From: a virus
Direction: 5' to 3' (one strand)
DNA length: 20,368 nt
IMG/VR virus record: IMGVR_UViG_3300027801_000209
Span: 1 to 20,368 of that record
Shown: one piece after another, positions 3,052 to 20,368 of the stretch
Numbering within the stretch: position 1 is the stretch's first letter
Layout of the letters: each line of letters opens with the position of its first letter
Notes under the pieces: generated by a model
The model's input: the letters and a program-made list of their open reading frames with translations, nothing else
What the model was told of the DNA's origin: nothing
Database searches by the model: none
Made by a program: the position numbers and the translations under genes

Positions 3052-4221
3052 GTGGCAAATTTTATTGACATATTAAGCCCAACACCGTTTGGCTTTTTTG
3101 ACTCGTCTATAGACTTCCAAAAAGAAGCAGACGCTATTGTGCCATTTGTAAAGCGTAAGTTAGGCGATGATATACTGTCAGTTGAGCTCACAAAGAAGCA
3201 AATCTGGGCATGCCTAGAAGAATCACTTTTAGAATACAGCTCAATAATAAATCAGTATCAGGCAAAATCACAATTGGCCAATCTTTTGGGCGGCCCTACT
3301 GGATCTCTCGACGGATCTGAGCAAAAATTTCCAAGAGAAAATCTAGAGTTCATGCTTCGAAGGGCAGAACCATATTCTATGGAAGCCGGTATGGGTGGTT
3401 CGTACAATATGCTTTCAGGGTCTATTGCTCTAGTAAAAAACCAGCAAGACTACGATTTGTACACAGATCTAAAAGACGGTGACGGAACAGCACTCTTCGA
3501 TAGAGCAGAAAATAATCCTAAAAGCAAGCTTAAGGTGATGGAAGTTTTTCATAATAGTCCGATGTCCGCTTATAGGTTTTTTGATACAACTTCTGCTATC
3601 AACTATTTAAATAATGAGTTTAGCTTTGAGTCGTTCACACCTGAGACAGTTTTTTATGTCTTACCTATTTTTGAAGACGTACTAAGAAGCGGACAATTAG
3701 ATATGTCCCAACGCATAAGACGAAGTAACTACTCTTATAAGATCGTAGGAACAAAGATAAGAATTTACCCTAAGCCAACTCAAAATGATCCTAAAAATCT
3801 GTGGGTAAGGGTCCATTTTTCACCAGATCCGATGAACCCAAGCTTTGCAGACGCAACTATTGAGGGTGTAAGTAATCTTTCAAATATTCCGTATGGAAGA
3901 CTCACATTTGATAAGATAAATTCAATTGGACGCCAATGGATAAGACAGTACGCACTCGCACTTTGTAAAGAATTGCTTGGGCTTATAAGGTCTAAATTTA
4001 CTTCTGTCCCAATCCCTGGCGCAGACTTAACCTTAAATGGATCCGATTTATTAAGCCAGGGAAGAGAAGACGTCGCCGGCCTCAAAACAAAGCTAGCTGA
4101 AATGTTAGAAGAGCTGACATACAGCAAAATGCTAGAAGATGAAGCCTCAGCAAGCGAAAATCTTACGAGAATTCTAAGAGGCATTCCGATCCCAAATGGC
4201 CGCGCAATAGTGATGGGTTGA
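3052..4221 (+). CDS. gp13: Neck protein, T4 gp13-like
   Basis: Predicted neck (head-completion) protein of 389 residues. In T4, gp13 with gp14 closes the filled head at the portal and provides the site where the tail docks. The best visible match is the N-terminal signature at residues 44-63, beginning VELTKKQIWACLEESL, which parallels VELTPDQIYDCIQRAL in T4 gp13; the acidic-helix pattern after it is also shared. It is longer than T4 gp13 (309 residues), with extra sequence in the middle (about 85-150) and a helical C-terminal tail. The start is GTG, preceded by GGTGGAG eight bases upstream. The gp14-like gene follows after eight bases, and gene order gp13-gp14-gp15 supports the call. Recognition is by motif and synteny only. 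Confidence 0.78.
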   Translation: MANFIDILSPTPFGFFDSSIDFQKEADAIVPFVKRKLGDDILSVELTKKQIWACLEESLLEYSSIINQYQAKSQLANLLGGPTGSLDGSEQKFPRENLEFMLRRAEPYSMEAGMGGSYNMLSGSIALVKNQQDYDLYTDLKDGDGTALFDRAENNPKSKLKVMEVFHNSPMSAYRFFDTTSAINYLNNEFSFESFTPETVFYVLPIFEDVLRSGQLDMSQRIRRSNYSYKIVGTKIRIYPKPTQNDPKNLWVRVHFSPDPMNPSFADATIEGVSNLSNIPYGRLTFDKINSIGRQWIRQYALALCKELLGLIRSKFTSVPIPGADLTLNGSDLLSQGREDVAGLKTKLAEMLEELTYSKMLEDEASASENLTRILRGIPIPNGRAIVMG

Positions 4222-6254: not shown

Positions 6255-6284
6255 TCATAGGGATAGATCGCTCTAGGAGATATG

Positions 6285-9200
6285 ATGGCTGAGCAAACAT
6301 TTCGTTCACCTGGCTTTTTCGAACAGGAAATTGACCTTTCTGCAAAACAATTAACACCTACAGGAACACCTGCCGGGATAATTGGAACTGCTGAGAAAGG
6401 TCCGGCATTCGTTCCTGTTACAGTCGGGACTTTCGCAGATTTTCAAACAAGATTTGGCACTTTAGATACCAATCGATTCGGACCGTACGCGGTTCGAGAA
6501 TGGTTAAAACATAGGACCGCAAGTACCTATTTAAGGGTTTTGGGAGCTGGTTCAAATGAAACAGCAACTGATATTGCCAATACTACAAACAAAGGCATAG
6601 TCAAAAATGCAGGATTCCGCTTAAGCGGGTCTGTAGAACTTGGCGACTCCGGTGGATATCACGGTGATGTCCGAAGTGCCGGAGATGTAAGGTTTATATG
6701 TGCACAACACACACCGGCAACCAATGAGACAGCGGCGTATCCAGTATTTACTGATAACCCCTCTTTCTCAATATCGGCTACCGCTGGCGGAGACGTTTCT
6801 CTTGTCAGAGGTGTTGTTTTCGTCGCCACCGGCACCAAGCTAGAGGTGATGGACTATAATACTGACTATGCTTCGTATCGTACGACCGCAGCCGATAGTA
6901 ATGCGTATGATATTGCTAAGGTCGGTGCTATAGCTGGCAGCACACTCACAGAAAGCAAGTACTTTAAGATTATTCTTAGTTCTTCTTCTGGTGCAGGTTG
7001 GGCTAATGATGAAAGCCAGGCGGGAATTAGAATTATTTCTGCTTCTCTTGATCCTAAAGATGGAAACTATATTTCCAAGGTTCTAAACACAGACCCACTT
7101 AAGTTTCAAGAGCAGGAGCACCTTCTTTACCTCGACTTCGCAGTTGAGCATGAACTCGCACCTGTCCAGTCCACAGATGATTCTGCTACTGTTGCTATCT
7201 TAAGTGGAACTGCAGGTCATTCTAATACATCTGGCGATACTAGCGTTGTTTTCAACGACCTTTTCGGAAGGTACGATACACGATACACAACACCAAGAAC
7301 CACTGCGTTCATCTCACAGCCTTTCGGAAAGAGAGAATTCGATCTTTTTCACTTCGAGACAATTTCTGACGGTGCTTATGGTAACGAAAAGTTCAAGGTA
7401 TCTATTTCAAACCTTAGAGCCTCTACAGACCCGAACGATGATTTCGGAACATTTGAAGTTCAAATAAGAGCCTTTGATGACAAAGACACAGATACACAAA
7501 TTCTAGAAAGATATCCTGAGTGCTCACTAAACCCCAGGTCTGAAAGATACGTCGCAAAAATGGTAGGCGACAAAAAAGTCAGATACGACTTTGACCAGGA
7601 AAACGAGGATGAGCGAAGGCTGGTCATCTCTGGAAAATATCCTAACCTCTCTTCCAGAATCAGAATACAGATGAATTCTTCTGTAGAGAGTGGAGATATA
7701 CCACACTCAGCACTTCCATTTGGTTTCCGAGGTGTCCCTGTTATTAAGACAAGTGACATGCTTGCACAGGGTAACACAGGTGGCGGCGGCGGATCAGCCC
7801 TGACTTTTGACGGCAGAACTTACGGATCAGCGAAGACAAATAGAATCAACAACCTCTCTTCTTCGCAACACAATCCAATGTCGGCATCTCTGGTTCCACC
7901 TCTTCCCTTTAGATTTAAAGTGACAAGAGGCGAAGCAGACAGTGATACCACACCTACAATGGTTGGCCAACCAGGAACAAACGAAAGAGTTGATGGAAGA
8001 TATTACTGGGGTGTTAACACAATATCAATTCCAACAAAAGAAGCAGCTGGTACCGCAGCAAAAGCTATTCTTAATGCAAATGGAGGTGTTGGTGTCAACC
8101 CACTCATACGTGCTTATACCAAATTCCAAGGAATTAAGAAACTTGATGCACTCGTTACTGGGTCTGGAGCAGACGTATTCAACGCGAATAAGTTTACTCT
8201 GGCTAGAGTCGCTCTAGGTAACACTACTTCAAACAACAAGTTAAGTGATATCTTTGCAGCCGTGACTGGATCTTCTAGAGAGCATATGCTCGAAGCTGCG
8301 TACATTAGAAACGGCACACCCGATAGAAATACGTACACTGTCGATGATAGAACAACAGCCGGCGCCAACAGATTTACTTTGGCATCGCTGGTTCATACGA
8401 GCTCAGTCCTCTTCAATAGATTCACTGAGTACGCGAAGTTTACAAATATCTTCTACGGAGGCTTCGATGGAGTTAACATCCTTGATAAAGATGCTTTCTA
8501 CTTCAGAGATAGAGTATTCTCAGTCGACACAGGCGGAAAAGCTGTTGACGGCGACCCAGACATAGGATTGTCTACTACTGGTGGAACAACCATCAAGAAC
8601 GGTGACAACGTCATGGGCGAAGGAAGAAAGGCAAATTCAAATGCGTCTTTCAGAAGAGCTGTTGATATTATGACTGACCCGGTTGCTTCCAATATACACA
8701 TCTTAGCAATCCCGGGTGTAAGAGACACGTTCGTAACAGATCATGCTCTCACTAAGAATAGAGACTACTCAATGTCCATCTATATTATGGACTCTCTGAG
8801 ATACGACGAAGATGTTAATCGTCTATATGATGATTCTTCAACTCGTGTTGATGTGAGAGAGACTTCCGAGCAGTTTGAGTCGAGAGCAATTGACAACAAC
8901 TATGCGGCCACTTATTTCCCTGATGTCTTTATTGAAGATCCTATCAATAATCAGACTGTTAAGGTTCCGTCTTCTGTTGCAGCATTAGGTGTGCTATCCT
9001 ATAACGATAACAACAAGTACGAGTGGTTCGCTCCAGCCGGCTTTAATAGAGGCGCATTGGACTTCGTCCGTAACGTAGAAAATCGTCTAACTTCTGCTGA
9101 TAGAGACACTCTGTATGATGCCAGATTCAACCCAATTGCTGTGTTTCCAAATGCAGGCTATGTAGTCTTCGGACAGAAAACACTTCAAATGGCGAAGTCT

Positions 9201-9521
9201 GCTCTAGATAGAGTAAACGTTAGACGTCTCATGCTAGAGGTCAAACGACAAGTTGTACGAGTTGCCGATAGAATTCTTTTCGAGCCGAACAATTCCGCTA
9301 CAAGGGCAAAATTTGTTAATCAAGTTGTGCCTCTCTTGGCATTAATACAGCTTAACAGCGGAATTGAGCAATTCAAGGTGGTGATGGACGAGTCTAATAA
9401 TACATCAACTGACGTAGAAAACAACAAACTGAATGGACGAATAGTTGTTGTTCCGACAAGAGCAGTAGAATTTATCTCTGTTGACTTTATCATCACAAAT
9501 AGCGGTGTGTCGTTCGAGTAA
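6285..9521 (+). CDS. gp18: Tail sheath protein, T4 gp18-like (paralogue 1)
   Basis: Contractile-tail sheath subunit of 1078 residues. Sheath proteins form stacked hexameric rings around the tail tube and contract to drive the tube through the host envelope. The N-terminus has the sheath signature GTAEKGPAFVPV (about 34-45; T4 has KFQWGPAFQI) and TYLRVLGAG. The C-terminal core carries PSSVAALGVLSYND (895-908), WFAPAGFNRG (914-923), LFEPN (about 998-1002) and PTRAVEFISVDFIITN near the end, typical of phage sheath C-domains. T4 gp18 has 659 residues, so some 400 are added in the middle, where a five-glycine run occurs at 499-503. ATG at 6285 is preferred over the ATG at 6282: it gives MAEQTF, matching the other paralogues, and sits five bases after AGGAG, whereas 6282 would be only two bases from it. 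Confidence 0.92.
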   Translation: MAEQTFRSPGFFEQEIDLSAKQLTPTGTPAGIIGTAEKGPAFVPVTVGTFADFQTRFGTLDTNRFGPYAVREWLKHRTASTYLRVLGAGSNETATDIANTTNKGIVKNAGFRLSGSVELGDSGGYHGDVRSAGDVRFICAQHTPATNETAAYPVFTDNPSFSISATAGGDVSLVRGVVFVATGTKLEVMDYNTDYASYRTTAADSNAYDIAKVGAIAGSTLTESKYFKIILSSSSGAGWANDESQAGIRIISASLDPKDGNYISKVLNTDPLKFQEQEHLLYLDFAVEHELAPVQSTDDSATVAILSGTAGHSNTSGDTSVVFNDLFGRYDTRYTTPRTTAFISQPFGKREFDLFHFETISDGAYGNEKFKVSISNLRASTDPNDDFGTFEVQIRAFDDKDTDTQILERYPECSLNPRSERYVAKMVGDKKVRYDFDQENEDERRLVISGKYPNLSSRIRIQMNSSVESGDIPHSALPFGFRGVPVIKTSDMLAQGNTGGGGGSALTFDGRTYGSAKTNRINNLSSSQHNPMSASLVPPLPFRFKVTRGEADSDTTPTMVGQPGTNERVDGRYYWGVNTISIPTKEAAGTAAKAILNANGGVGVNPLIRAYTKFQGIKKLDALVTGSGADVFNANKFTLARVALGNTTSNNKLSDIFAAVTGSSREHMLEAAYIRNGTPDRNTYTVDDRTTAGANRFTLASLVHTSSVLFNRFTEYAKFTNIFYGGFDGVNILDKDAFYFRDRVFSVDTGGKAVDGDPDIGLSTTGGTTIKNGDNVMGEGRKANSNASFRRAVDIMTDPVASNIHILAIPGVRDTFVTDHALTKNRDYSMSIYIMDSLRYDEDVNRLYDDSSTRVDVRETSEQFESRAIDNNYAATYFPDVFIEDPINNQTVKVPSSVAALGVLSYNDNNKYEWFAPAGFNRGALDFVRNVENRLTSADRDTLYDARFNPIAVFPNAGYVVFGQKTLQMAKSALDRVNVRRLMLEVKRQVVRVADRILFEPNNSATRAKFVNQVVPLLALIQLNSGIEQFKVVMDESNNTSTDVENNKLNGRIVVVPTRAVEFISVDFIITNSGVSFE

Positions 9522-9523
9522 AT

Positions 9524-9531
9524 GATAAGTA
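9524..9531 (+). promoter_or_regulatory. Candidate late-promoter-like box before sheath 2
   Basis: GATAAGTA lies three bases after the sheath 1 stop codon and 30 bases before the sheath 2 ATG. It is part of the ten-base word ATGATAAGTA that also occurs before sheath 4 and, inverted, before sheath 1. It matches the T4 late box TATAAATA at six of eight positions. No experimental support can be drawn from the sequence. Confidence 0.25.
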
Positions 9532-9560
9532 CTATTAGAGATTAATCAGGAGATAACTCA

Positions 9561-12500
9561 ATGGCAGAGAAAACATTTTTAAGCCCGGCTGTTAGCACTA
9601 GAGAAATAGACCTCAGCCAGCCAACAACACTTACTCCTACTGGAGTTCCTGCAGGAATAGTGGGTACTGCCCGTCGAGGACCAGCTTTTGTGCCAGTCAC
9701 AGTCGCGACTTTCCAAGACTTTGTGGCGAAGTTTGGAAACACCGACGGCGAGGCCTTTGGCCCACTTGCCATGCACGAATGGATGAGATTCCAGCGCGCC
9801 GGCACTTATGTAAGAGTCTTAGGTGTTGGAAACGGTAAAGCACGAGTCACCTCAGGAAAGGTCACAAATGCAGGCTTTATAGTAGGCGATGCGCTCCCAC
9901 AAGCCAACGGGAATATCGGTGTAAATACTTACGCACACACCGGAATGCAGCTTGGACGAACTTACATTTTAGCTGCTTATATGAAGCAAGCAGACGGTTC
10001 CACAGTGTTTGCAGACGCTGGACTAAATGATAATAATTTCAGTGCAGCAAGACCTATTGTTAGAGGAATTATGATGTTTGCATCGGGTGTTGTTCCAACA
10101 CTCAATACTGACATCACCTCTGACAACAGACCACTAGCATCAGGAGTTCCTGAGACCGCTGAAGGTATAGAGCGAGGTACATCTATAGGTGATATCCTGA
10201 CAGGGTCAGGCGAAAAGCAAGAGTTTATAATGCTCTTGAATGGACATAAAGTCTCAGATTCTTATCTAAATGTAATAACTGCTTCATTCGACCCAGACGC
10301 ACCAAATAACTTTAGAAATATGTTCAATACCGATCCTACTAAGATCGAAGAATCAGGGCATTACCTCTATCAAGACTACCAAGTTCACAAAACTATCGCA
10401 GTCGTCACTGGCGCCGGCGCAACTCATTTTGCTGACACCAGAGGCTCAGGCCAAGAAGACGGCATTTCAGGCAAGCGATACGGTACGTGCTTCATAATGG
10501 CATCCTCAGGGTCAAGAAATGATTCTTCTGAGACATCTTCTACAGCTCTAGGTAATATCAACCTTGAAGGGTTCGATGATAGATTCAGAACAGCTTTCTC
10601 GCCCTTTGTAATATCACAGAAGTTTGGTGGACAAAACCAGAACCTTTTCAAAGTACATGCACTCGACGACGGCCAAGCAGGCTCAGATACCTTTAAGATC
10701 ACGATCGAGAACATCATTGGTTCAACGAATGAGAATAGAACGTTTGGATCTTTCGACCTCGCAGTCCGCAGGTTCGATGATGCCGATAGAAATAAGGAAG
10801 TTCTAGAAAAATTCTCGAGGATCGATCTAGATCCAGCTAGTGATAGATACATTGCTAGAGTTATCGGGGATACACACACTTTTTATGACTTTGACAAGAA
10901 GGCCGGCGGCCAAAAATTAGTAATAGACGGTGTGTACCCTAATAAGTCGCAATACATCAGAGTTGAGACATCAGACAAGCTCGATAATGGGTCTATAGAC
11001 GATTCAGCCCTCCCTGTAGGTTTCCGAGGTCTACACCACATGGTGACATCAGGCTCAAACGATGCTACTGGTTTCGGTGCAGTGGTCTCAGGATCAATTA
11101 CAGGGTCTGGCGAATCTGCGAGAAACTTCCATGTTAGTATTGCCCATCACCACACGATGGATGAGAAAAACATTTTCTCAGGCTCATTTAGAAATCTGGT
11201 TCAGTTTCCTATTCCTATGAGAGAAAACCTTTCAAAAGGAACAGGTCAGAAAAAGACTGCTGATGCGAACCTTACATGGGGCATCCAGTTTGAAAAGAAA
11301 AAGAATCTTTCAGAGCCTAACGCACTTGATAAGCTCGATCCAATGATCAGAAGCTATGTAAGATATCTGCCACACCACCTCGAATCAGACCAGAATGTTT
11401 GGGCGGGTGCCAACGAAGGCGCGCAGGACGTCGCAGGTAGTATCCTCGATGCTGATAGATTTAACAATAACCTGTTCTCGCTAGAAAGAATCGAAGTAAT
11501 AACTGACGCTAATAGTAAACCTGATCCTCAACAGTGGGCAGTTGCAGCCTATCGTAGAGATGGTACAGCAGAGTCGACCATGACTGATGTGTTCGGGAAT
11601 GCTGGCCAGGCGTCTCGTCTGCTAAACCCAGCAACAGACCTTGCCCATCTTCCTTCTAGAAAATATCTCAAGTTTACTTTCCCTCTTCAGGGAGGCTTCG
11701 ATGGGACAAATATTTTCAATGAAGACAAAGCAAAATTCAGAGATAACGCTGTAAGAAGAGAGATGGATGATTCTAGTAATCAAGGCGGAACATCCGGACC
11801 AACAGTAGCAGCGCTTAGAAAAGCAATCGATGTAATGGAAGAAAAGTCCGACGTCGATATTAAAGTCTTAGCAATACCAGGCCTTAGACACGAGTCGATC
11901 ACTGATTACGCTGTAGATTCTACTGAGAGAAGGTTCGATGCGCTCTTTGTGATGGACGTTGAGGAAAAAGACACTGTTAGTTCATACGTCACGTCTTCAG
12001 CTGATCAAGTAATTAATGTTTCTAACACAGTGACTAGATTTGCTAATAGAAACATGGACTCATCGTTTGCCGCCGCATACTTCCCCGACGTGGTAATAAC
12101 TGATCCGTCAACGCAAACAAATGTTCAGTGTCCGCCTTCAGTTGCTGTTATAGGAGCTTTAAGTTATAATGACTCTGTGGCACATCCTTGGTATGCACCT
12201 GCAGGATTTACCCGCGGCGCTCTGATGTCAGTTATAGAATCACAAGTGAAGCTAAATCAAGCAAACCTTGACGAATTGTATGAAGTAGATATCAACCCAC
12301 TTGCTTCTTTTGGACACACTCCTGAGGTTGTGGTCTTCGGACAAAAGACCCTTTTGGCGAACAAGAGCTCTCTAGATAGAGTCAACGTTAGGCGTCTTCT
12401 AATCGAAGTAAGAAGAAAGGTAAGGGTCGTCGCAAATACTCTTCTATTCGAACCAAACAGAGCAGATACACTTACTAAATTCTCAAATGCTGTGACCCCA

Positions 12501-12686
12501 ATTCTCGCAAGAATTCAGGCGCTGCAAGGTCTAGAAAGATTTAAGGTCCAGATTGATACAACAACCACAACACAGGCAGATGTCGAAAATAACACCATCC
12601 GAGGCAAGATCTACTTGCAACCTACACGTGCAGTAGAATTTATCAGTCTAGACTTCGTTGTAACAAATGCAGGTGCTGAGATTTAA
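9561..12686 (+). CDS. gp18: Tail sheath protein, T4 gp18-like (paralogue 2)
   Basis: Second complete sheath subunit, 1041 residues. It has the N-terminal GTARRGPAFVPVTV (about 34-47) and TYVRVLGVG, a long middle region shared with sheath 3 (for example TAFSPFVISQKFGGQ and LDDGQAGSDTFKI), and the C-terminal core PPSVAVIGALSYND (858-871), WYAPAGFTRG (877-886), LFEPN (962-966) and PTRAVEFISLDFVVTNAG at the end. AGGAGA at 9548 gives a good ribosome-binding site eight bases before the ATG, and the gap from sheath 1 is 39 bases. It is closest to sheath 3, with several tracts of identical DNA, and differs from it mainly by lacking the domain inserted near residue 160 of sheath 3. It should assemble around the same gp19 tube; whether it mixes with the other sheaths in one tail is unknown. 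Confidence 0.92.
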   Translation: MAEKTFLSPAVSTREIDLSQPTTLTPTGVPAGIVGTARRGPAFVPVTVATFQDFVAKFGNTDGEAFGPLAMHEWMRFQRAGTYVRVLGVGNGKARVTSGKVTNAGFIVGDALPQANGNIGVNTYAHTGMQLGRTYILAAYMKQADGSTVFADAGLNDNNFSAARPIVRGIMMFASGVVPTLNTDITSDNRPLASGVPETAEGIERGTSIGDILTGSGEKQEFIMLLNGHKVSDSYLNVITASFDPDAPNNFRNMFNTDPTKIEESGHYLYQDYQVHKTIAVVTGAGATHFADTRGSGQEDGISGKRYGTCFIMASSGSRNDSSETSSTALGNINLEGFDDRFRTAFSPFVISQKFGGQNQNLFKVHALDDGQAGSDTFKITIENIIGSTNENRTFGSFDLAVRRFDDADRNKEVLEKFSRIDLDPASDRYIARVIGDTHTFYDFDKKAGGQKLVIDGVYPNKSQYIRVETSDKLDNGSIDDSALPVGFRGLHHMVTSGSNDATGFGAVVSGSITGSGESARNFHVSIAHHHTMDEKNIFSGSFRNLVQFPIPMRENLSKGTGQKKTADANLTWGIQFEKKKNLSEPNALDKLDPMIRSYVRYLPHHLESDQNVWAGANEGAQDVAGSILDADRFNNNLFSLERIEVITDANSKPDPQQWAVAAYRRDGTAESTMTDVFGNAGQASRLLNPATDLAHLPSRKYLKFTFPLQGGFDGTNIFNEDKAKFRDNAVRREMDDSSNQGGTSGPTVAALRKAIDVMEEKSDVDIKVLAIPGLRHESITDYAVDSTERRFDALFVMDVEEKDTVSSYVTSSADQVINVSNTVTRFANRNMDSSFAAAYFPDVVITDPSTQTNVQCPPSVAVIGALSYNDSVAHPWYAPAGFTRGALMSVIESQVKLNQANLDELYEVDINPLASFGHTPEVVVFGQKTLLANKSSLDRVNVRRLLIEVRRKVRVVANTLLFEPNRADTLTKFSNAVTPILARIQALQGLERFKVQIDTTTTTQADVENNTIRGKIYLQPTRAVEFISLDFVVTNAGAEI
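9568..9610 (+). repeat. 43-bp tract identical to the 5' end of sheath 3
   Basis: These 43 bases, codons 3-17 of sheath 2, are identical to 12737-12779 in sheath 3, and identity resumes after one silent mismatch. Silent positions are shared, so this is recent duplication or gene conversion rather than protein-level conservation. Confidence 0.85.
11448..11506 (+). repeat. 59-bp tract identical to part of sheath 3
   Basis: This tract, encoding DADRFNNNLFSLERIEVIT, is identical base for base to 15064-15122 in sheath 3. A further identical stretch of about 41 bases follows shortly after, from about 11520 here and 15136 in sheath 3. The sequence between and around these tracts differs at many silent sites. 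Confidence 0.85.
12549..12601 (+). repeat. 53-bp tract identical to the 3' end of sheath 3
   Basis: This tract, encoding QIDTTTTTQADVENNTI near the C-terminus, is identical to 16165-16217 in sheath 3. It is one of several identical islands in otherwise diverged DNA. Confidence 0.85.
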
Positions 12687-12729
12687 TGCTCCAGTCCATG
12701 CTGTATATTAATTTTCGGGATATAATTCA

Positions 12730-15700
12730 ATGGCACAGAAAACATTTTTAAGCCCGGCTGTTAGCACTAGAGAAATAGATCTCAGCCAGCCATCAAAAAG
12801 AAAACCAGCAGGTATTCCCGCTGGTGTAATTGGTACTGCCCGTCGAGGCCCAGCTTTTGTGCCAGTCACAGTCGCGACCTTCCAAGACTTTGTATCAAAA
12901 TTCGGTAATACAGACGGAGAGGCCTTTGGGCCTCTTGCAATGCATGAGTGGTTGAGGAATGCCCAAGCCGGAACGTATGTAAGAGTCTTAGGCATAGGCA
13001 ATGCTGAGGCACGTGCAACATCAGGAAAAGTCGCCAGTGCAGGTTTTGTCGTGGGGTCACAGCAGGTCCAGGCCAACGGAAACTTTGGAACAAACCCATA
13101 TGCACATTCAACCACAGGCCCAGGGCAGCTAGGAAGATCTTTTGTACTCGGGTGTTTCATGTCAGAATCTGCTGGCAGCTCATTTCTTAGTGATGCAGGA
13201 ATACAAAAAGGAACCCTCCGAGCAACAGCATCAGTAACAATCCTCAATGCCGGCGAGATCACAAACAACGCCCAAATATCGTTTGTTACAGCTGGTGGTG
13301 ATACAGTCACAATTACCGGTCATGCTAGTGACAATGCCATGACCACAACGTCTGGTGCTTCCACGGATGGAACGTTTGCTGCCGGAAACACCCTCTCTGG
13401 TGATACCGCCGGCAACAAAGCTCAAGCCCTCGCTATCGCCGCTGCCATCAGCCTCCATGACGATTTTACTGCAACCGCTGTCGACACCAATGTTATAACA
13501 ATAACACAGAACACAGGCGGAGAAGCAGGCAATACAACCATTACTATAGCCAAGAATGGCGCAGACGGGAATATGTCTGCCGATGATATCGCCGTTGGGG
13601 ATTCTTTTACTGCCGGCCATGACGTCACAGCACAGCCAATTGTAAGAGGAATTTTAATGTTCCCATCTGGGGTCGTGCCAACTCTCAATACATCTATAAC
13701 TGCGCTCAGCTCGAAAGGTGCCTTAGCTCAAGGAACGCCTGGCGTTGCCAACCAGCAGGAAGGTATTGAAAGAGGCTGTGCCGTAGGCGATATCATAACA
13801 GGTTCTGGTGATAAACAAGAGTTTGTAATGCTCTTAAACGGTCACAAGGTTTCTGATGGATACCTTAACGTGATCACTGCATCATTTGAGCAAGATGCTC
13901 CAAATAACTTTAGGAATATGTTCAATACCGATCCTACAAAGATCGAAGAAGCCGGACATTATCTATACCAAGACTATCAGATACACAAATCTTTTGCAGT
14001 TCCAACAGGATCAGGTGCGACATACTGGGATGACTTCAGGGGCTCCGGTCAAGACGACGGATCAGCAGGCAAGAAATATGCAACAGCTTTTCTCCTACCG
14101 TCCTCAGGGTCAAGAAATGATTCTTCTGAGTCATCTTCTACAGTTCTAGGTAATATCAACCTCGAAGGCTTCGAAGATAGATTCAGAACAGCTTTCTCGC
14201 CCTTTGTAGTATCACAGCAGTTCGGCGGCCAAAATAAGAATTTGTTTAGGATACATGCTCTTGATGACGGACAAGCTGGATCTGACACGTTTAAAATTAC
14301 AATCGAGAACATTATTGGTTCAACGAATGAGAATAGAAAGTTTGGATCGTTTGATCTAGTTGTACGTAGGTTTGATGATTCTGATGTAAAGCCAGAAGTT
14401 CTAGAAAAGTACAATAGAATCGATTTAGACCCATCTAGTGATAGGTACATTGCTAGAGCCATTGGTGACACACATACTTTTTATGACTTCGATAAGAAGG
14501 CAGGCGCCCAAAAGCTGGTCATCGATGGAATATATCCTAATATGTCACAATATATTAGAGTTGAAACATCAGAAGCTCTAGACGAAAGTGCCATAGACGA
14601 TTCAGCACTTCCAGTAGGCTTTCGAGGCCTATACCACATGGTGACATCAGGCGCCGCAGGCGACACCGGTGGCCTCGGATCAGTATTGTCAGGAACACTT
14701 TCTGGAAGCGGAGAATCAGCTCGTCAAAACCACGTAAGCCGAGGATCGATTGACCCAGATGACCATCATCTTCGTTTAGCGATGAACTCATTCTCTGGTT
14801 CTTTCCAAAACGTAGTACAGTTCCCAATTCCTATGAGAGACAATATTTCACGAGGATCTGGAAAAAGAATCGAAGCAGATGCAAGTCTTACGTGGGGAAT
14901 CCAGTTTGAAAAGAAAAAGAACCTATCAGAACCAAATGCCCTCGAAGTCTTAGATGAGTCGATCAGAAGCTTTGTAAGATATCTCCCACACCATCTTGAA
15001 TCAGATCAGAACGTTTGGGCCGGAGATAATGAAGGGGTAACAGATATTGGCGGCGCCGTTCTTGATGCTGATAGATTTAACAATAACCTGTTCTCGCTAG
15101 AAAGAATCGAAGTAATAACTGATACTAGCAGCAAGCCTGATCCTCAACAGTGGGCAGTTGCAGCCTATCGTAGAGACGGAACAGCTAACTCTACAATGAC
15201 AGATATTTTTGGAACCGCTGGCCAGTCTTCCAGGCTTATTGATCCGGCATTAGACTTTGCCCATCTTCCTTCTAGAAAGTATCTCAAGTTCACTTTCCCA
15301 CTTCAGGGAGGTTTCGATGGTGTTAACGTCTTTGATAAAGACAAGGCAAAGTTCAGAGATAATGCTGTAAGAAGAGAAATGGATGACTCGAGCAACCAGG
15401 GTGGCATTAAGGGACCAACAGTAGCAGCTCTTAGAAAAGCAATCGACGTAATGGAAGAGAAATCAGACGTCGATATTAAAGTTTTGGCAACACCAGGCCT
15501 CAGGCATGAATCTATTACAGACTACGCTGTCGAATCGACCGAGCGCCGATTCGATGCACTTTACATAATGGATATTGAGGAAAAAGACACTGTTAGCTCA
15601 TACGTAACCTCCTCAACTGATCAAATAATTAATGTTTCTAACACAGTGACTAGATTTGCTAATAGAAACATGGACTCATCATTCGGAGCAGCTTACTTCC

Positions 15701-16302
15701 CCGACGTGGTAATAACTGATCCTTCTACAAAGACGAATGTCCAGTGTCCGCCTTCAGTTGCTGTTCTAGGAGCTTTGAGCTATAATGACGCTATAGCCCA
15801 TCCTTGGTATGCACCTGCAGGATTCAATAGAGGTGGATTAACATCTGTATTAGAGTCCCAAGTGAAGCTAAATCAAGCAAACCTTGACGAACTATACGCT
15901 GTAGACATTAATCCACTTGCTTCTTTCGGTCACACCCCTGAAGTTGTCGTCTACGGTCAAAAGACGCTCTTGGCGAACAAAAGTTCACTGGATAGAGTTA
16001 ATGTTAGAAGGCTCCTGATTGAAGTAAGAAGATCAGTCCGAGGCGTTGCAAATACCCTCCTATTCGAACCAAATAGAGAGGATACGCTCACCAAATTCTC
16101 AAATGCAGTAACCCCAATTCTTTCAAGAATCCAGGCCCAGCAAGGAATAGAGCGGTTTAAAGTTCAGATTGATACAACAACCACAACACAGGCAGATGTC
16201 GAAAATAACACCATCCGGGGCAAGATCTACTTGCAACCCACGCGTGCCGTAGAATTCATCAGCCTAGATTTTGTCGTAACAAATGCAGGCGCCGAGATCT
16301 AA
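12730..16302 (+). CDS. gp18: Tail sheath protein, T4 gp18-like (paralogue 3, with extra domain)
   Basis: Third complete sheath subunit and the longest complete one here, 1190 residues. N-terminal GTARRGPAFVPVTV and C-terminal PPSVAVLGALSYND (about 1007-1020), WYAPAGFNRG (1026-1035), LFEPN (about 1111-1115) and PTRAVEFISLDFVVTNAG are those of sheath 2, and most of the protein aligns to it nearly without gaps. The difference is an insertion of about 140 residues at 161-300, a Thr/Ala/Gly-rich beta-strand domain described separately. The ribosome-binding site is weak: only GGGA at 12717 lies before the ATG, unlike the AGGAG of sheaths 1, 2 and 4, so translation may be lower or coupled to sheath 2, which ends 43 bases upstream. 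The product may be a minor or decorated sheath subunit; this is inference. Confidence 0.92.
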   Translation: MAQKTFLSPAVSTREIDLSQPSKRKPAGIPAGVIGTARRGPAFVPVTVATFQDFVSKFGNTDGEAFGPLAMHEWLRNAQAGTYVRVLGIGNAEARATSGKVASAGFVVGSQQVQANGNFGTNPYAHSTTGPGQLGRSFVLGCFMSESAGSSFLSDAGIQKGTLRATASVTILNAGEITNNAQISFVTAGGDTVTITGHASDNAMTTTSGASTDGTFAAGNTLSGDTAGNKAQALAIAAAISLHDDFTATAVDTNVITITQNTGGEAGNTTITIAKNGADGNMSADDIAVGDSFTAGHDVTAQPIVRGILMFPSGVVPTLNTSITALSSKGALAQGTPGVANQQEGIERGCAVGDIITGSGDKQEFVMLLNGHKVSDGYLNVITASFEQDAPNNFRNMFNTDPTKIEEAGHYLYQDYQIHKSFAVPTGSGATYWDDFRGSGQDDGSAGKKYATAFLLPSSGSRNDSSESSSTVLGNINLEGFEDRFRTAFSPFVVSQQFGGQNKNLFRIHALDDGQAGSDTFKITIENIIGSTNENRKFGSFDLVVRRFDDSDVKPEVLEKYNRIDLDPSSDRYIARAIGDTHTFYDFDKKAGAQKLVIDGIYPNMSQYIRVETSEALDESAIDDSALPVGFRGLYHMVTSGAAGDTGGLGSVLSGTLSGSGESARQNHVSRGSIDPDDHHLRLAMNSFSGSFQNVVQFPIPMRDNISRGSGKRIEADASLTWGIQFEKKKNLSEPNALEVLDESIRSFVRYLPHHLESDQNVWAGDNEGVTDIGGAVLDADRFNNNLFSLERIEVITDTSSKPDPQQWAVAAYRRDGTANSTMTDIFGTAGQSSRLIDPALDFAHLPSRKYLKFTFPLQGGFDGVNVFDKDKAKFRDNAVRREMDDSSNQGGIKGPTVAALRKAIDVMEEKSDVDIKVLATPGLRHESITDYAVESTERRFDALYIMDIEEKDTVSSYVTSSTDQIINVSNTVTRFANRNMDSSFGAAYFPDVVITDPSTKTNVQCPPSVAVLGALSYNDAIAHPWYAPAGFNRGGLTSVLESQVKLNQANLDELYAVDINPLASFGHTPEVVVYGQKTLLANKSSLDRVNVRRLLIEVRRSVRGVANTLLFEPNREDTLTKFSNAVTPILSRIQAQQGIERFKVQIDTTTTTQADVENNTIRGKIYLQPTRAVEFISLDFVVTNAGAEI
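13210..13629 (+). other. Inserted beta-rich domain within sheath 3
   Basis: Residues 161-300 of sheath 3 have no counterpart in sheaths 1, 2 or 4. In sheath 2 the flanking text runs from FADAGL through nine residues to RPIVRG; in sheath 3 SDAGIQ and QPIVRG are separated by this block. It is rich in Thr, Ala, Gly and Asn with strands such as ASVTILNAGEI, DTVTITGHAS, TNVITITQNTGG and NTTITIAKNG, and a helix NKAQALAIAAAISLH. The pattern resembles, from memory, a domain that recurs in large structural and fibre proteins of marine phages, where it probably faces outward. Base composition looks somewhat richer in GC than the neighbouring sheath code. Confidence 0.8.
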
Positions 16303-16317
16303 AAAAGGCAGAATTGA

Positions 16318-16325
16318 GATACTTA
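16318..16325 (+). promoter_or_regulatory. Candidate late-promoter-like box before the tail tube gene
   Basis: GATACTTA, followed by GATAGG, lies 39 bases before the tube ATG. The same octamer precedes sheath 1, where ATAGGG also follows. Between the box and the start codon is a tandem eight-base repeat AAACTCTT (16334-16349), then AAGGAGA. The first CTCTT could pair weakly with AGGAG of the ribosome-binding site. Confidence 0.22.
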
Positions 16326-16363
16326 GATAGGTAAAACTCTTAAACTCTTAAGGAGAGATAAAA

Positions 16364-16852
16364 ATGGCAGAAACACTACCAGTTACCGATATGTTACCCA
16401 ACAAGTTCGAGCCGAAGCGAAAGTTTCGCTGGGTCTTCGCAATTGAGGGTATTGACGCATTTTTGATGAAGACGGCTGCTCGTCCAACTATTAATACAGA
16501 AGAGCAGGAAATAAGCTACATCAATCATACGCGATATGTCGCAGGAAAAACTAAATTTGACGCACTAAGCTGCACGCTTCACGACCCAATTGCTCCATCA
16601 GGAGCCCAGCAGGTTATGGAATGGATAAGAACTCACTTTGAATCAGTCTCAGGCCGCGGCGGCTATGCTGATTTCTACAAGCGCGATTGTCAGCTTAAGC
16701 TTCTCGATCCAGTTGGAACAGTTGTTGAGCTCTGGGATATTAAAGGTGCCTTCTTAACTGCAGCATCTTTTGGAGATCTAGACTACGGAGCATCAGACCC
16801 GACAGAGATTTCTCTGACAATAAGATTTGATAACTGCGTCTTGCAGTACTAG
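16364..16852 (+). CDS. gp19: Tail tube protein, T4 gp19-like
   Basis: Predicted tail-tube subunit of 162 residues, almost the length of T4 gp19 (163). Tube subunits stack as hexameric rings inside the sheath and form the channel for DNA. Supporting features are the N-terminal PNKFEPKRKFRWVFAIEG (T4: FARPNLFQVEISYLG), a central TKFDALSCTLHDPIAPSGAQ (T4: RTFDDWTVTVMND), an IKGAFLTAASFGDLDYG strand-turn (T4: IKGLWPTNVGELQLDWD) and a closing strand EISLTIRFDNCVLQY. This core is a beta-barrel in known tube proteins. AAGGAGA six bases before the ATG is a strong ribosome-binding site, as expected for an abundant protein. It follows sheath 3 and ends at a terminator, so it closes the upstream unit. 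In T4 the tube gene directly follows a single sheath gene; here another sheath gene comes after it. Confidence 0.9.
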   Translation: MAETLPVTDMLPNKFEPKRKFRWVFAIEGIDAFLMKTAARPTINTEEQEISYINHTRYVAGKTKFDALSCTLHDPIAPSGAQQVMEWIRTHFESVSGRGGYADFYKRDCQLKLLDPVGTVVELWDIKGAFLTAASFGDLDYGASDPTEISLTIRFDNCVLQY

Positions 16853-16882
16853 ACTTTCGTCGTCTTAAGAGTTTTGTTTTAG

Positions 16883-16920
16883 AACCCTCTTGTGTTTTGG
16901 GCACTTGGGGGTTTTATTTT
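16883..16920 (+). terminator. Rho-independent terminator after the tail tube gene
   Basis: AACCCTC (16883-16889) pairs with GGGGGTT (16907-16913), with one T-G wobble. Inside, GTG (16892-16894) pairs with CAC (16902-16904) across a symmetrical TT/TT internal loop. A T-rich tract, TTATTTT, follows. It begins 30 bases after the tube stop codon, so sheath 4 is likely to have its own promoter in 16921-17030. Confidence 0.75.
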
Positions 16921-17006
16921 ATTCAATTTTAGATGATTTAATAATTTCAATCGACAAGTAAGATTAGAATAGGATGAATACCAACCTCAGCGACCTTCAT
17001 CTAGAT

Positions 17007-17014
17007 GATAAGTA
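17007..17014 (+). promoter_or_regulatory. Candidate late-promoter-like box before sheath 4
   Basis: GATAAGTA, within ATGATAAGTA (17005-17014), lies 27 bases before the sheath 4 ATG and downstream of the tube terminator, exactly where a new promoter is needed. The same ten bases precede sheath 2. It matches T4 late TATAAATA at six of eight positions. A separate TATATA at 17019 is a competing candidate. Confidence 0.28.
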
Positions 17015-17040
17015 GAGTATATAGCCGCTAGGAGTTAGAG

Positions 17041-20000
17041 ATGCCAGTTTACAATAGTCCTTCAGTTACAGTGAGGTCCGAAGATACCCCTCACGCGCAA
17101 CAGTTTACTGAACCGACAACCAGCGCCGCCACAATCATTGGCCCTGCCAGAAGAGGCCCCGCATTTATTCCAGTAAGATTTTCATCTTTTGATCATTTTG
17201 AGTCTGTTTTTGGGTCAACTGACTCAGAGCGATTTGGACCACTTGCGGTCAGAGCGTGGATAGGAGAGCCTGGCACAACCGGGACCTACATAAGGACCTT
17301 GGGCGCAGGCACTTGCAAAAAAAGAGAAAGCACAGGAGAAAACGCCGGAAGAGTAGACAAGGCCGGCTTTGTAGTGGGAGACGAGCAACTTTCTGAAAAC
17401 AATGGGTTTATCGCCAAAAATTCTCAAGCCGGAGAAAATGGACCTCTTGGAAAAACATACTTCTTAGGATGCTTCATGTCGGAGTCGGCAGGAAGTACAT
17501 ACTTTAGCGACGCCGGAATTATCCACGGAATGGATAATTTAGGATACCATGCGAAGTCTGATCCAAAGAATGGGTCAATTCCGGTCTTGAGAGGCATCTT
17601 GATGGTCCCTTCCGGAGTATCACCTTCGCTTACGTCTGATACTGTGGGTAACAATGAGCCTAGCAGTGTCTCTTTCGGAAAATTCGACGCAGCAGGATCA
17701 GGAGACGGAGGTGGAGCTTTCGGAGACATCAACTCAGTCACCGGCGACAAACAACGATTCATAATGATACTAAACGGTTTCACAGCTATTAAAGACGCCA
17801 CCGGAAACGTTCTTCCTAACGGTGACGGTGATCTATGGAACAATGCGATAACAGCATCATTCGATCCTCTTGGCGACGCCGATGTTGAGTATTTTGGGAA
17901 TGTCTTTAATACTGACCCACTAAAAATACAGAAAGCCGGCCACTATTTGCATACTCACTATCCAATCGATATGATACATGCAATAGCCACAGGATCGGGA
18001 ATAGTAGGCAATTTCTCCATAGCCGAAGGCGACGGAGAAGCCTCGGTAGACGGTGCAACAGTCAATGTAAAGTATGAGACAGCTTTTTTACTAACTGGAA
18101 GCTTTAGAAACTCAGGGTCGGCAACATCTAGTACACATGTAGGCACTCCTAATTTTGAAGGATTCGAAAACAGGTACACGACTGCCTTCTCTCCGTTTGT
18201 AACAGGTCACAAAGTATCAGGAAAAAGACAAGATCTTTTTAGAATACACACCTTAGACGACGGCCGCGCAGGCTCGGACGCTCTAAAGATAACAATCTCA
18301 AATATATACGCTTCAAACAATGAAGACTTTAATCCTTACGGAACATTTGACCTGCATGTCAGGAGAGCCGATCAACCAGATATCTTATTTGGGGCTTTCT
18401 CTGATGCAGTTGAATCTTTAGAGACCTTCGCCAACTGTAATCTAGATCCATCTAGTCCAAACTATATTGCTAAGAAAATCGGTGATACACACACTTTCTT
18501 TAATTTTGATAGTAGTCTAAGTCAAAAGATAATCGTAGAAGGAAAGTATCCTAGCGTTTCACAGTATATTAGAGTTGAGATGGATCCTAGCATCGACCTG
18601 GGCACAACTCCAACAACACTTTTGCCTATAGGCTTTAGGGGTTTAAACCATCTAATAACATCGGGGTCAACTTCAAACGTAGCGGGCTACAGGTCTTCTA
18701 TTCTATCCGGACAGCTCTCTCGAGAAAGTGGAAATGCAGGAGAAAGAAATCCGTCAACTTCACTTTCTGACGCTTCGAGTGATATCGTCGCCAGAGTGAT
18801 ACAACCTCCTGTTCCTATGAGAGAAAACATTAAGGTCATAAACCCACTCGATACCGGGCCCTCATCAACAGGAAAGGTCGAAGGCAATTTAACCTGGGGC
18901 GTTCAATATGAAAGAAAGACGCAGCTGGATTTTCCAAATGAGTCCACAGTGAATTCTGAATTACTCCGAGGCCTTGTTGAATATATGCCCGATTACCACA
19001 CTGATTATCAGAACGCCTGGGTCGGAAACAATCATGGTGCACCTGATCTAGGCGGTTGCGTCCTCGATGCTGATAGATTCAATAGGAATTCGTTTACTTT
19101 GGAGAACATAGAAGTAATTGAAAATGTAGACAGCTACCCTGATGCAGACGAGTGGTCAGCGGCTGTCTATAGAAGAACCGGGAAGGCTGTGAAGACAATG
19201 AGTAACTCTGATGGTGTTACAAAAGTTTCTCGTCTTTTAGATGCCAAAAGAGACCTTACGAGCGTGACTGAAAATAGCACGACAGGCAAATACCTTAAGT
19301 TCACATTCCCACTGCAGGGAGGGTTCGACGGTGTAAATATTTTTAATAGAGACAAATCACTCTTTACAGACAACGCAGTTAGAAGAGAATATCTCGATCC
19401 TGCTCAAGGGAAAGGCAAAGGCCCGACGGTCTCCGCCTATAAAAAGTCTCTGGACATCTTGCGAGATACCACCATTCCTATGAGTATATTGGCTCTTCCT
19501 GGTATTCGCCATGTCCCGCTCACAGAGTATGCGACAGAAATGGCTGAGAACAGATTTGATACTTTTTATGTGATGGACATTCCGTTGCTTGATGTAAGTA
19601 GTACTGTTATAACATCTTCATACCTGTACCCGGGCATTCCTCCAACGTCAGCATTTGATACCGCAGGAACAGGAATCATAAACCCAGAGAATACGATAAC
19701 AAACTTTTCAAGTAACCTGTATAATAGCACATTCGCAGCTGCCTACTACCCGAACATTGTTATTACGGATACTAATGTCGAGGCCGCATTTGAGGCCCCT
19801 CCATCTGTCAAAGTAATGGGTGTTTTGAGCGGCTTATCTAACTCATGGTCACCGCCCGTAGGGTATACAAGAGGTAAGGTCGATGCTGATGCTGTTGTGA
19901 TATCCCAGACAGACATTCAGATAGAAAAAGCGTTTAATGCAGGAATAAACACGATAGCTCCTAACATAGGTGGTGTACCACCGTTTATAAGAAGTGAAAA

Positions 20001-20368
20001 AACACTCTCGTCAAACACAGCCAATGTCTTTTCTAGAATAAGTGTTAGGCGTCTCTTGTTAGAAATTAGAGGGACTGCAAGAAGACTTGCAAGGTCGACC
20101 CTCTTCGAGGGCCTTAACGCGACAACGATGAAAGAATACAAAAATACGCTCTCAGCTGAATTAGATGCTATAATAGCTCGCGGCGGCCTGACATCATACA
20201 AGATAATAATGGATACATCAAATACTACTCTCTTAGACAGTGCCGGCCAAGCCGTAGGTGTAATACCTGGTGTAAAATCGGTAAAGAGAGACAGGAAATT
20301 TAATATTATGAGGGCCAAGGTGTTACTAAAACTCAAAAATACTTCAGACTATGTTGTTCTAGACATTG
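17041..20368 (+). CDS. gp18: Tail sheath protein, T4 gp18-like (paralogue 4, partial at window end)
   Basis: Fourth sheath gene, open through the last base: 1109 codons without a stop, with probably only about 5-15 residues missing, judged from alignment to the ends of sheaths 2 and 3. TAGGAG six bases before the ATG is a good ribosome-binding site. The N-terminus reads MPVYNSPSVTVR, unlike the other three, but then has GPARRGPAFIPVRF (about 34-47) and TYIRTLGAG. The middle resembles sheaths 2 and 3 (TAFSPFV, LDDGRAGSDALKI, VLDADRFNRNSFTLENIEVI, FPLQGGFDGVNIF). The C-terminal core is diverged: APPSVKVMGVLS (919-930) is kept, but WYAPAGF is replaced by WSPPVGY, LFEPN by LFEGL (1021-1025) and the closing PTRAVEFI by LKNTSDYV, with about 17 extra residues before it. 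It is separated from the other sheaths by the tube gene and a terminator, which suggests separate regulation and a specialised position. Confidence 0.9.
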   Translation, partial: MPVYNSPSVTVRSEDTPHAQQFTEPTTSAATIIGPARRGPAFIPVRFSSFDHFESVFGSTDSERFGPLAVRAWIGEPGTTGTYIRTLGAGTCKKRESTGENAGRVDKAGFVVGDEQLSENNGFIAKNSQAGENGPLGKTYFLGCFMSESAGSTYFSDAGIIHGMDNLGYHAKSDPKNGSIPVLRGILMVPSGVSPSLTSDTVGNNEPSSVSFGKFDAAGSGDGGGAFGDINSVTGDKQRFIMILNGFTAIKDATGNVLPNGDGDLWNNAITASFDPLGDADVEYFGNVFNTDPLKIQKAGHYLHTHYPIDMIHAIATGSGIVGNFSIAEGDGEASVDGATVNVKYETAFLLTGSFRNSGSATSSTHVGTPNFEGFENRYTTAFSPFVTGHKVSGKRQDLFRIHTLDDGRAGSDALKITISNIYASNNEDFNPYGTFDLHVRRADQPDILFGAFSDAVESLETFANCNLDPSSPNYIAKKIGDTHTFFNFDSSLSQKIIVEGKYPSVSQYIRVEMDPSIDLGTTPTTLLPIGFRGLNHLITSGSTSNVAGYRSSILSGQLSRESGNAGERNPSTSLSDASSDIVARVIQPPVPMRENIKVINPLDTGPSSTGKVEGNLTWGVQYERKTQLDFPNESTVNSELLRGLVEYMPDYHTDYQNAWVGNNHGAPDLGGCVLDADRFNRNSFTLENIEVIENVDSYPDADEWSAAVYRRTGKAVKTMSNSDGVTKVSRLLDAKRDLTSVTENSTTGKYLKFTFPLQGGFDGVNIFNRDKSLFTDNAVRREYLDPAQGKGKGPTVSAYKKSLDILRDTTIPMSILALPGIRHVPLTEYATEMAENRFDTFYVMDIPLLDVSSTVITSSYLYPGIPPTSAFDTAGTGIINPENTITNFSSNLYNSTFAAAYYPNIVITDTNVEAAFEAPPSVKVMGVLSGLSNSWSPPVGYTRGKVDADAVVISQTDIQIEKAFNAGINTIAPNIGGVPPFIRSEKTLSSNTANVFSRISVRRLLLEIRGTARRLARSTLFEGLNATTMKEYKNTLSAELDAIIARGGLTSYKIIMDTSNTTLLDSAGQAVGVIPGVKSVKRDRKFNIMRAKVLLKLKNTSDYVVLDI

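Follow-up and report, generated by a model that had tools for sequence, protein, structure and literature searches.

In the tail sheath protein of phage T4, gp18, the halves of domain III flank domains I and II (residues 88-345) in the chain, and both of the latter are exposed. Domain I projects outward, takes no part in the contacts between sheath subunits and touches the baseplate and the retracted fibres (PMC3004832). In phage Milano, the sheath extension domain (SED) is likewise external on the sheath (PMC10811340). Accessory domains of sheaths are known, and their role is unsettled (PMC9230969). Ig-like accessory domains are swapped horizontally among phage virion proteins, according to Fraser 2006 as cited in that survey (PMC9230969), and sheaths go unmentioned in a survey of how phages shuffle domains (PMC10684548).

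The DNA analysed here, hereafter the window, is a record of 20,368 bases from an uncultured virus of bacteria, with four sheath genes in series: sheath 1 (6282-9521, 1079 amino acids, recognised as a sheath by alignment and in PHROGs), sheath 2 (9561-12686, 1041 amino acids), sheath 3 (12730-16302, 1190 amino acids) and sheath 4 (17041-20367, at least 1109 amino acids, extending past the window end). A gp19-like tail tube gene lies between sheath 3 and sheath 4 (16364-16852; PF06841, E = 4e-5, below the cut-off). All of these genes, and the features within sheath 3 described below, are on the plus strand. A single phage thus has four sheath paralogues arranged in tandem (6282-20367), and the usual sheath content of related contigs spanning the region is one S1-type and one S2-type gene. 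An ORF at 9-572 gave a weak match to 2OG-Fe(II) oxygenases (E = 6e-5, below the cut-off).

Sheath 3 has the conserved C-terminal core of a T4-type sheath. PF17482, the sheath C-terminal domain, scores over the cut-off, phrog_23 (tail sheath) matches with E = 3e-59, and the best PDB fold match of the full-length model is T4 gp18 (E = 4e-19). The core (15418-16299, residues 897-1190) corresponds to residues 351-653 of T4 gp18 with an hhalign probability of 99.8%. The start of the core, a probable counterpart of the N-terminal region of T4 gp18 domain III, was placed at 12820-12921 (residues 31-64) by a PF22671 match that is below the cut-off (E = 0.17 in sheath 3 and 0.013 in sheath 2).

Sheath 2 and sheath 3 are 81% identical, and residues 161-300 of sheath 3 (13210-13629) are the sole large difference between them. 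The alignment of the four sheaths bears out the original prediction that these two paralogues are nearly gapless apart from an insert of 140 residues carried by sheath 3, and that at the same point sheath 4 has another short filler of about 20 residues and sheath 1 a short loop. A hidden Markov model of the inserted module matched the window at 13213-13626 with E = 3e-60, and the insert has a G+C content of 0.51 against 0.445 in the remainder of the gene. An assembly error can be ruled out, since the insert was found at 99-100% identity in four further contigs from separate assemblies (L002, L003, L004 and L005).

Because the insert is flanked by the domain III match on one side and by the C-terminal core on the other, we infer, by analogy with T4 gp18, that it lies in the exposed section of the sheath chain. 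In the full-length model of sheath 3 the core is good, whereas for most of the insert the pLDDT is below 50, so the exposure of the insert is deduced in this way and not directly predicted. The outward-facing position that had been proposed for the insert is thus supported indirectly, by its equivalence to T4 gp18 domains I and II and by its nearest folds, of which the part that matches by sequence is external. The same model has confident beta strands on either side of the insertion loop, at 13138-13167 (residues 137-146) and 13633-13659 (residues 302-310), which is consistent with insertion at the tip of a hairpin.

When the insert alone was modelled with AlphaFold2 from 17 copies, we obtained a pLDDT of 82.9 and a pTM of 0.82, with four strands, a central helix (13405-13449, module residues 66-80, just before a conserved LHDDxTAT motif) and then further strands. 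The insert is thus predicted to be a self-contained domain; the separate fold that had been expected was recovered (pLDDT 83), although the full-length model did not place it. A Foldseek search against the PDB gave as best matches the sheath proteins of phage Milano and phage 7-7-1, with E values of 5e-3 to 8e-2; the top entries (8fop, 9rku and 8foy) had probabilities of 0.98-1.00, E values of 5e-3 to 3e-2 and TM-scores of 0.46-0.53, and no match had E below 0.001. With the insert as query, Pfam returned no family at E up to 1, NCBIfam and PADLOC likewise nothing, and PHROGs chance-level matches only, while a sequence profile search of the PDB returned only antibody fragments (E of at least 0.5), which we judged to be chance.

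Profile-guided scans located the module in 20 contigs besides the window. At the insertion site of sheath 3, which we call site A (it follows sheath 2 residue 156), it also occurs in L011 and L012, and in L010 it sits at a neighbouring sheath loop, so that two loops are used in S2-type sheaths. In T4-type phages with a single sheath it is found at residues ~155-340 or 400-640, in at least four loops. It is also present within a 384-residue non-sheath protein of L006 and twice in a giant protein of L096 (more than 3,823 residues). In the module tree the window copy groups with the L006 copy (95/89), and a single clade for the modules of S2-type sheaths was rejected (p-AU 0.003). Since the module tree conflicts in this way with the sheath tree, sequence comparison indicates that the module has moved laterally. 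Its presence in unrelated proteins, at different sites and with conflicting trees marks the module as a mobile accessory domain of virion proteins. As distant phages carry it elsewhere, in different loops and in different proteins, it seems to be exchanged among phages as a clip-on part for the particle exterior. A tblastn search of the INPHARED cultured phages with two module copies gave no match, and pattern and tblastn searches of bacterial and archaeal genomes found none.

Several other observations were made on these contigs. The giant protein (L096:1-11469) contains two more repeat pairs, residues 1-146 with 575-716 and 1800-1945 with 3215-3358, and its two other module families had no INPHARED match where tried. 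In L008 an in-frame TAG (1312-1314) stands at the module end in a T4-type sheath where L009 has a sense codon, which may reflect a sequencing error, a mutation or readthrough. Small neighbouring proteins in L006 (7200-7871) and L121 (3279-3923) resemble single modules and each other (Z 4.9), with only a marginal link to the module.

We propose that residues 161-300 of sheath 3 are a laterally acquired, self-contained domain that occupies a hairpin loop within the accessory region of a T4-type sheath and most likely serves as surface decoration. We consider this reading likely as a whole; its structural and evolutionary part is well supported, and the role is the part that we infer. With its core and assembly arms retained, sheath 3 would still polymerise around the tube, either by itself or together with sheath 2, and every sheath 3 subunit would display a single copy of the domain on the shaft exterior. 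The decoration would alter what the shaft surface contacts, be it adjacent subunits, fibres folded back along it or the surface of the host, and leave contraction undisturbed. Since the fold is similar to that of the extension domain in Mu- and Milano-type sheaths, the insert probably acts as an extra clip-on extension domain.

The same likeness, seen in both fold and profile, would also suit a mechanical role, in which the insert gives the sheath lateral stability or spacing as an extension domain would and has no outside ligand, and the contacts of T4 domain I with the baseplate and retracted fibres (PMC3004832) point the same way. However, the module also sits in the 384-residue non-sheath protein and in the giant protein, and within sheaths it occupies loops far apart along the chain, which is not what one would expect of a single packing role; we regard this as a tentative alternative to surface decoration. 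A special case of decoration is the adhesion put forward in the original prediction, in which the insert would bind glycans or the host surface and so equip the shaft of the tail with a second surface for attachment. The insert is in an exposed sheath region by T4 topology, two copies of the module belong to the giant protein of L096, and the survey of sheaths suggests adhesion for their accessory domains (PMC9230969). Yet no carbohydrate-binding or adhesin family was matched in Pfam, PHROGs, NCBIfam or the PDB sequences, and the nearest folds of the insert are sheath and flagellin domains. Glycan or cell binding is possible but unsupported, and we think it rather unlikely.

Less probable still is that the domain is a neutral passenger, tolerated in an exposed loop and spread by recombination with no function of its own. 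Its many insertion sites and its presence or absence among close relatives would fit such a history, but the reading frame is intact, the identity is 99-100% in five records and positions are strongly conserved across the 17 divergent copies, all of which argues for selection on the domain.

A scan with sheath 2 gathered 80 related loci, and the insert turned out to be absent from sheath 2 and from nearly all of 75 related sheaths, so that it is not a feature which all related sheaths share, the outcome that the original prediction had named as fatal to a gain. The loop at site A is normally about 20 residues long; measured between fixed alignment points, it spans 16-44 residues in nearly all relatives and 156 in sheath 3. 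A tree of 78 sheaths, computed with the insert columns left out, makes sheath 2 and sheath 3 sisters and requires a minimum of five changes in the presence of cassettes. Because the nearest relatives on this tree are without the module, the sequences read as a gain of the domain by sheath 3 after its split from sheath 2, in agreement with the addition originally claimed. That the domain was instead ancestral and lost by deletion in sheath 2 is highly improbable: the module does occur at the same site in the S2-type sheaths of L011 and L012, but these are distant from sheaths 2 and 3 on the tree, module-free sheaths intervene, and the sheath 3 module is nearer to that of the non-sheath protein than to the L011 and L012 copies.

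The two paralogues had also been described as recent duplicates, which is wrong, as their silent sites are near saturation (dS ~1.3, dN 0.13, 52% identity at 4-fold sites). From these values, which give a dN/dS of about 0.1, purifying selection appears to act on both sheath 2 and sheath 3. The first 50 codons of the two genes (9561-12683 compared with 12730-16299) are 75% alike at 4-fold sites against 52% gene-wide, possibly as a result of recombination.

The idea that the site behaves as a variable loop accepting cassettes is supported, as related sheaths have different cassettes there. The L028 sheath, which is closely related to sheaths 2 and 3, has at site A a different cassette of 164 residues. 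This cassette has a relative among the repeated segments of the L096 giant protein (shuffle Z 8.2, hhalign P 3e-6), a segment that differs from the module of the window. The cassette of L076 is a distant relative of the module, and profile comparison found no link between the L055/L057 cassette and the module or its relatives. In L121, the homologue of the L006 protein has another insert at the corresponding place, without sequence relation to the module and like it by eye only. Marine phages might, we suggest tentatively, draw on a pool of interchangeable cassettes of 100-160 residues that are swapped into a small number of standard loops of tail-shaft and other virion proteins, and the shaft may then be mixed and partly decorated.

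Since only one of the two paralogues acquired the domain, sheath 2 and sheath 3 form, in one phage, a natural plus/minus pair for testing its effect. Moreover, as Pfam and NCBIfam both lack the module family and PHROGs gave chance-level matches only, its description would link sheaths, the giant protein and unnamed proteins of uncultured phages.

Among known domains, the insert comes nearest to the SEDs of Milano gp20 and 7-7-1 gp126 (PF17481, Phage_sheath_domII superfamily), the sheath proteins that are its top fold matches. In Milano gp20 the sequence likeness falls at residues 136-170, within the external extension domain (91-203), and the common pattern is a helix AxxIxxAI followed by VxTxTxxxxGxxGN. 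A profile of 12 SEDs aligned to the module profile with an hhalign score of 27.7 (P 5e-4), weak in absolute terms but higher than all 400 shuffled controls (200 column shuffles, maximum 17.4, and 200 block shuffles, maximum 22.0). The insert and the SED are, on these profiles, probably distant homologues, short of proof. PF17481 itself did not match the insert, and a Mu-type extension-domain profile found nothing in 13 phage records. The two also differ in setting: the Milano SED is a native domain (residues 91-203 of a 503-residue sheath) that comes straight after the sheath body domain's first half, whereas the insert is an extra in a T4-type sheath of 1190 residues, starts at residue 161, about 70 residues further, and, unlike the SED, also sits in other proteins.

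Domain I of T4 gp18 resembles the insert as a beta-rich accessory domain nested between the halves of domain III (PMC3004832). It is, however, a fixed domain, a six-stranded barrel with a helix, while the insert belongs to only one paralogue of a pair and changes loop from sheath to sheath. Moreover, T4 gp18 is absent from the listed fold matches of the insert alone. The outer domains of flagellins, including Flagellin_IN (PF07196), gave weak fold matches, and one module copy reached a Pfam E value of 0.074; these matches are not significant and the protein context differs. With the Ig-like accessory domains the insert has in common that it is an exchangeable domain of the virion surface, but no Ig-like Pfam family recognised it, it has a central helix, and its fold matches are sheath and flagellin domains. 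Overall, we regard the insert as a surface domain cassette that is mobile and not of the Ig type. New relative to these systems are the non-Ig module family, which is uncatalogued, its uptake by a single member of a pair of paralogues and the replacement of cassettes at the same loop.
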